Source: Acetobacterium malicum subsp. dehalogenans DSM 11527 | GTDB lineage: Bacteria; Bacillota; Clostridia; Eubacteriales; Eubacteriaceae | Direction: 5' to 3' | Length of the DNA stretch: 64,000 nucleotides | Assembly: GCF_000472665.1 (NCBI RefSeq) | Contig: NZ_AXAC01000004.1 | Span: 62,001 to 126,000 of the forward strand | Part shown: one piece after another, positions 42,463-42,765 of the stretch | Numbering within the stretch: position 1 is the first letter of the stretch | Layout of the letters: every line of letters starts with the position of its first letter | Program-made: the position numbers and the translations under genes | The notes under the pieces: model-generated | Told to the model about the DNA's origin: nothing | Database searches by the model: none | Seen by the model: only the letters and a program-made list of their open reading frames with translations

Positions 42463-42765
42463 ATGATTGGTGATGCGAATATTGTAGATTTTTTATTGCA
42501 GTTTCTCGGTCAGTTTGATGGCATTGATGTGATTAAAGCATTTTCAGCCATTGGTGCAGGGACTGCCATGATCGCTGGGGTAGGACCTGGTATCGGTCAG
42601 GGATTTGCCGCCGGTAAAGGCGCAGAAGCAGTGGGAATTCGGCCCGATTCCCAAAGTGATATTATTCGAACAATGCTACTGGGTGCAGCAGTTGCTGAAA
42701 CCACTGGTATTTATGGGCTCATCGTCGCATTGATTCTACTCTTTGCGAATCCCTTTATGGGTTAA
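42463..42765 (+). CDS. atpE1: ATP synthase c subunit, first copy (single hairpin, extended N-terminus)
   Basis: A 100-residue c subunit with one helical hairpin. Helix 1 carries [18 protein letters not shown] with Gln46, and helix 2 carries [16 protein letters not shown] with Glu79, Thr80 and Tyr84, the Na+-coordinating set. Compared with the next two copies it has a roughly 17-residue N-terminal extension ([19 protein letters not shown]) and I-R-P-D in the loop instead of R-Q-P-E. In A. woodii the first c gene is described as encoding a duplicated 18-kDa V-type-like subunit, which this is not. A degenerate copy of its last codons follows the stop at 42762-42807. Confidence 0.93.

Follow-up and report, generated by a model that had tools for sequence, protein, structure and literature searches.

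The window considered here, a stretch of 64,000 nucleotides from Acetobacterium malicum subsp. dehalogenans DSM 11527 (contig NZ_AXAC01000004.1, positions 62,001 to 126,000), harbours an F-type adenosine triphosphate (ATP) synthase operon with the gene order atpZ-I-B-E1-E2-E3-F-H-A-G-D-C, as read from its open reading frames and compared with Acetobacterium relatives, the gene names being our own labels. The first c subunit gene, c1, follows atpB, precedes the ordinary c genes c2 and c3 and forms the subject of this account (Table 1). A preliminary description made from this DNA alone had read c1 as one hairpin of 100 residues with a complete ion site at Gln46, Glu79 and Thr80, in place of the duplicated c1 of Acetobacterium woodii. 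The open reading frame, its translation and alignment all agree with this reading, and the first c gene truly differs from that of A. woodii in that the second, Gln-bearing hairpin is absent. The gap between c1 and c2 spans only 71 base pairs (bp) and thus leaves no room for a second hairpin, the protein itself ending in the residues ANPFMG. With ratios of nonsynonymous to synonymous substitution (dN/dS) of 0-0.063 in all 15 pairs drawn from the six genomes with the MIGD-type single c1, the gene is kept by purifying selection.

Table 1. Positions, within the 64,000-nucleotide window, of c1, of its features and of the neighbouring operon genes.
Feature	Position	Strand	Details
atpB (subunit a)	41776..42438	+	Open reading frame; order matched in the genus
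atpE1 (c1)	42463..42765	+	ATG start, TAA stop, 100 residues; one-hairpin c subunit (open reading frame list, translation)
c1-specific N-terminal segment	42463..42534	+	Codons 1-24; short helix at about residues 7-16 ahead of helix 1
Gln46	42598..42600	+	Na+ motif, helix 1 (translation, alignment to A. woodii c subunits)
Loop codons G58-I59-R60-P61 (IRP)	42634..42645	+	xRP, the loop typical of the final, dead hairpin in longer c1 proteins
Glu79-Thr80	42697..42702	+	Na+ motif, helix 2, c2-like (translation, alignments)
44-bp tandem repeat at the 3' end of c1	42712-42755 + 42756-42799	+	Out of frame; copies identical at 36/44 positions
atpE2 (c2)	42837..43088	+	Ordinary one-hairpin Na+ c subunit, 83 residues, RQP loop
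atpE3 (c3)	43138..43389	+	83 residues; protein sequence identical to c2
atpF, atpH, atpA, atpG, atpD, atpC	43448..48841	+	Open reading frames; order matched across the genus

According to PMC7793690, the Na+ motif of c subunits consists of a Gln in helix 1 and a Glu-Ser/Thr pair in helix 2. Gln46, Glu79 and Thr80 occupy the positions of this motif in the A. woodii c subunits, Gln46 being invariant in alignments A2 and A3, and a single hairpin with all three residues would, on its sequence, class c1 as a Na+-type F-type c subunit. The structure predicted by AlphaFold2 with an alignment of 39 rows (mean predicted local distance difference test score, pLDDT, of 86), which replaced an earlier model made without an alignment (pLDDT 55), places helices at residues 7-16, 20-59 and 61-94 and matches the Protein Data Bank (PDB) chains 4bem_A, 1yce_A and, over 99 columns, 4bem_J in Foldseek. 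Val77 and Tyr84 of c1 presumably also fall on ligand positions of the I. tartaricus c subunit.

The likeness of the protein to A. woodii c1 (AtpE1, 182 residues, 4bem_J) lies in the gene position, the N-terminal segment and the Gln/Glu/Thr site of hairpin 1, to which it is 74% identical over 99 residues. It differs from that protein in its loop of the hairpin-2 type and its c2-like helices, and it possesses neither the two or more fused hairpins nor the Gln in the last hairpin that mark an A. woodii-type c1, carrying Glu79 instead. The ordinary subunits c2/c3 of A. woodii (4bem_A) share with it the one hairpin and the full Na+ motif, with 88% identity in the Foldseek alignment, whereas the window c1 adds the c1 N-terminal segment and has an IRP loop instead of the RQP of ordinary single hairpins. 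This segment, which had been called extra in the preliminary description, is indeed extra against c2/c3, but the same segment stands in A. woodii c1. Its pattern resembles FLx(W/Q)L..F(D/E) in 44 of the 81 multi-hairpin c1 frames found at the 79 loci described below and is looser, though W-containing, in a further 22, the remaining 15 showing neither pattern.

Hybrid rotors with a double c1 are already known. For Clostridium aceticum, PMC7911925 describes the same operon order as in A. woodii and a c1 of two hairpins, the second without a carboxylate. The c subunits of Acetobacterium bakii (ABAKI_c18390-c18410) are credited with a ring of “distinct configuration” in PMC6239172, and they may be of the same one-hairpin form. 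In those parts of the hybrid rotor literature that were available, no account was found of a return to a single live hairpin, of a mosaic make-up, or of a range extending to six hairpins, although the A. bakii paper or the 2015 review by Brandt and Mueller may contain such forms.

The genus was surveyed in 19 Acetobacterium genomes, of which 17 hold c genes of such kind, the forms being scored from open frames; G005 and G008 (86% and 81% complete, respectively) gave no c-gene match and were left out of the counts. A one-hairpin c1 was found in eight of the 17, namely the genome of the window (G000), G001, G009, G010, G013, G015, G016 and G018, the third c gene of G016 being cut by a contig end. 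Four genomes (G002, G006, G007 and G017) carry a double, A. woodii-like c1, G017 being taken as A. woodii on the agreement of its c1 with 4bem_J over the aligned stretches. Two more have a four-hairpin c1 in a 350-residue frame with Glu (E) and Gln (Q) in the order E Q E Q (L042 of G011 and L043 of G012), and c1 is absent from the last three (L036 of G003, L037 of G004 and L045 of G014), which keep two identical ordinary c genes. The form is not peculiar to the organism of the window. Of forty genomes of the family, 22 gave a match at 1e-10, namely the 17 Acetobacterium genomes and five from one other genus, the matches of the latter being weak, single-hairpin and 41-42% identical; among these forty, c1 of such kind was found in Acetobacterium only.

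Assemblies readily collapse c genes that stand in tandem and are nearly identical, and this lends some colour to the suspicion, voiced in the preliminary description as the finding that would overturn it, that a deletion during assembly or sequencing created the one-hairpin c1. The same architecture nevertheless recurs in eight genomes, that of the window included, and in five of the others the c1 protein shares 95-100% of its residues with that of the window while the genes differ at synonymous sites. The form is thus not an assembly artefact, the probability left to such an origin being negligible.

Beyond the family, species genomes were scanned with an alignment in which A. woodii c1 came first, and the best 80 candidates gave 79 loci; selection was by resemblance to the double form, towards which the set is hence biased. 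Only L055, itself from Acetobacterium, has a one-hairpin c1 as its first c gene, while at L114, L129 and L132 the search pattern read just one hairpin of a long c1 frame. Hairpins were classed in these 79 loci together with eight fetched stretches, identical frames being counted once and two long frames left unclassed. All 84 multi-hairpin c1 proteins parsed there begin with a live hairpin, bearing Glu, and end with a dead one, bearing Gln, and L055 is again the only single c1. Of 291 genomes sampled from the class, 123 gave a match, and 107 of these gave a single one and so hold no separate c1. The other 16, which gave several matches, divide into ten with a multi-hairpin c1, the one-hairpin genome G000, and five that show only RQP c subunits at the places fetched (G052, G065, G175, G219 and G259), the second match of four of these five lying outside those places. 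Within the same order as the window organism, all four genomes of family f3 are multi-hairpin, with three hairpins in G102, G154 and G201 and four in G262, and G069, G280 and G315 gave one match each.

At the upper end of the range of hairpin numbers stood the 538-residue c1 frame of L240 (G108, reverse strand), in which six fused hairpins follow the order E Q E Q E Q ahead of an ordinary c gene. Three- and four-hairpin c1 proteins were seen in Acidaminobacter and other Clostridia (L078, L089, L090, L098, L103, L105 and L241-L244), with the patterns E Q Q, E Q Q Q and E Q E Q among them. Two further three-hairpin proteins, those of L245 (G061) and L246 (G172), read E E Q, the middle Glu being followed by T-S-T instead of T-x-G.

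Since c1 elsewhere in Clostridia is double or longer, the one-hairpin form of Acetobacterium is most simply regarded as derived. The converse, that some Acetobacterium species have retained the original state from before the duplication, can appeal to the greater simplicity of one hairpin and to the N-terminus held in common with A. woodii c1. It would, however, require that independent duplications each settled on Glu in the first hairpin and Gln in the last; outside Acetobacterium c1 was found in multi-hairpin form, and so it was in G011 and G012, the deepest branch of the genus in a marker tree (rpoB, valS and gyrA) whose root was placed by choice. Retention of an ancestral single hairpin is accordingly held to be very improbable.

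A more specific clue to the origin of c1 is offered by the loop after helix 1. This loop is of the xRP type in 81 of the 84 last hairpins, in none of the 84 first hairpins (mostly xNP) and in one of the 21 middle ones, and the loops of 83 single hairpins comprise 81 RQP, one KQP and one IRP, the last matching the c1 of L055. Within the genus, all eight single c1 proteins have an xRP loop (six IRP and two MRP), as have the last hairpins (6/6) and none of the first (0/6). At the DNA level, the window c1 is nearest to its own c2/c3 in most of the intervals compared, the loop excepted, where the codons for AEAVGIRP agree with A. woodii hairpin 2 in 22 of 24 nucleotides as against 16-17 of 24 for its own c2/c3. 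From the combination of a last-hairpin-type loop, c2-like helices and a c1 N-terminus, we infer recombination within the c array. On these comparisons, c1 is probably orthologous by descent to the A. woodii-type c1, having lost the ion-less hairpin by recombination and regained its Glu from c2. An ancestral longer c1, with a Glu hairpin first and a Gln hairpin last, would have been shortened through recombination inside the c gene array, the dead hairpin being lost in the process, and helix 2 would have been taken from, or corrected by, c2 with restoration of the Glu. The resulting c1 would then join a mixed Na+ ring with c2/c3, and exchange of the operon middle between species may help to explain its patchy spread in the genus.

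Several observations weigh against this descent and should be given fair consideration. The loop match is short, and over the 36 nucleotides of codons 29-40 the lead of A. woodii hairpin 2 over the own c2/c3 is slight in G000 (28 versus 25-26) and G013 (27 versus 26), is reduced to a tie in G018 (25 for the best hairpin 2 and 25 for its own c2/c3), and is missing in G009 (23 for A. woodii hairpin 2, 25 for the best hairpin 2, that of G006, and 26 for its own c2). Helix 2 bears no trace of hairpin 2, so that the return from Gln to Glu is assumed and not seen, and no deletion scar was found at c1, the 3' repeat once taken for one being a later local duplication. Most of the class, moreover, is without any c1, and the 79 loci were picked for their likeness to the double form. 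Part of this evidence would suit a c1 that arose as a copy of c2 joined to a c1 N-terminus, with a loop made by point mutation and no remnant of a second hairpin: both helices lie nearest to the cell's own c2/c3 in most intervals, its own c2 is equal or nearer at the 36-nucleotide loop region in G009 and G018, and the helix-2 DNA of G009 c1 is identical to its own c2 in 94 of 96 nucleotides, which implies either that conversion by c2 occurs or that the copy is recent. What such a copy leaves poorly explained is why the xRP loop, otherwise a mark of last hairpins and foreign to the RQP of ordinary c subunits, should be common to the eight single c1 proteins of the genus, and an origin of this kind is considered rather unlikely.

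The 3' end of c1 had meanwhile been entertained as a source of relic sequence. The present stop codon sits in the second copy of the 44-bp duplication, which is present in G000, G013, G015 and G016 and absent in G010 and G001. The idea that the sequence after the stop is a relic of hairpin 2 was rejected, as the second copy resembles the end of c1 in 36 of 44 positions but the second hairpin of four relatives in only 27-30 of 44, and a one-hairpin c1 without the repeat occurs in G001 and G010. To judge from these sequences, the repeat is a later local duplication.

The patchy distribution of the forms was set against the marker tree, from which G010, G005 and G008 were left out when all seven single-c1 genomes tested were constrained to one clade. 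That constraint was rejected by the approximately unbiased (AU) test (p-AU 2e-39), a weak line of evidence that fits either exchange or repeated loss. When only G000, G013, G015 and G016 were joined in a clade, the constraint was not rejected (p-AU 0.249), and the group of five with G010 added was rejected (p 0.0005); G010 lacks valS and G007 lacks gyrA in the set, so that the sister pairing of these two rests on rpoB. On this tree the c1 form must have changed at least five times with three states, or four times when the genomes lacking c1 are set aside. G001 (single c1) is the sister of G006 (double c1) with a support of 100/100 for rpoB/valS/gyrA. Its AtpF is 83% like that of G000 versus 64% like that of G006, with AtpB at 84 versus 79 and AtpH at 78 versus 68, whereas it stands nearer to G006 than to G000 in AtpZ (76 versus 55), AtpC (84 versus 79) and valS (91 versus 86). 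This conflict between the operon middle and its flanks and markers suggests that the operon middle, c genes included, was exchanged. Also, the a subunits of G009 and G018 are divergent, being 56-60% identical to those of G000, G013, G015 and G016 despite a valS identity of 92-95%.

As for the rotor itself, the entry 4bem lists nine c2 chains and one 182-residue c1 chain for the A. woodii ring (as counted from the chains of the entry), which amounts to 11 hairpins. PMC7793690 gives this ring 10 Na+ sites and 3.3 Na+ per ATP. Should the ring of the window organism keep 11 hairpins and one c1, all of its hairpins would be able to bind Na+, and each turn would carry 11 Na+ where A. woodii carries 10, or 11/3 = 3.67 Na+ per ATP; on sequence grounds this is the simplest expectation only. 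With 11 sites, the ATP obtained per Na+ would fall by about 9%, and at equal ion potential a higher phosphorylation potential would be sustained, following the relation given in PMC5662883. The same assumption would assign nine sites to a ring whose c1 has four hairpins (E Q E Q) and eight to one with the six-hairpin protein.

It is tempting, albeit tentatively, to view the first c gene as an exchangeable gear cassette, with zero, one, two or four hairpins in the genus, three also in the order and six elsewhere in Clostridia, such that rings of equal size would range from about eight to 11 Na+ sites and Acetobacterium species would have shifted up as well as down, in part because the locus was exchanged horizontally. 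An equally tentative proposal, compatible with the other readings, is that the N-terminal helix is the main working part of c1, serving assembly or forming a plug, and that the gear ratio does not depend on hairpin number in the way supposed here. Such a segment does stand ahead of the first hairpin whether a c1 protein has one hairpin or as many as six, although some of these segments are short or dissimilar (including the 15 frames with neither pattern), but c1 is itself a chain of the crystallised ring in 4bem. The one-hairpin c1 separates the N-terminal segment from the dead hairpin, the two being joined in A. woodii, and a one-hairpin relative from the same genus, with one site more per turn expected, would be a natural counter-experiment to A. 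woodii, a species open to genetic manipulation (PMC9307552). The AtpA and AtpD of the window are each 97% identical to those of G017. Should the rings indeed differ in their counts as predicted, the ATP yields of Acetobacterium calculated from A. woodii numbers would need species-wise correction.

Among the other operon genes, AtpH (43954-44496 in the window) of G017, G002 and G007 is just 58-66% like that of the one-hairpin genomes, AtpA and AtpD being 93-99% alike, and by eye the divergence lies mostly in the N-terminal two thirds. The notion of an AtpH type as the perfect companion of the c1 form was dropped, since G002, G007 and G017 have a type of their own and the multi-hairpin G006, G011 and G012 differ from it. 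A tie between the c1 form and a second rotary ATPase was likewise rejected, a vATP-synt_AC39 gene being present in all 19 Acetobacterium genomes whatever their c1. In the genome of the window, contig C11 holds an operon resembling that of a V/A-type ATPase, with a proteolipid of 146 residues (L249).
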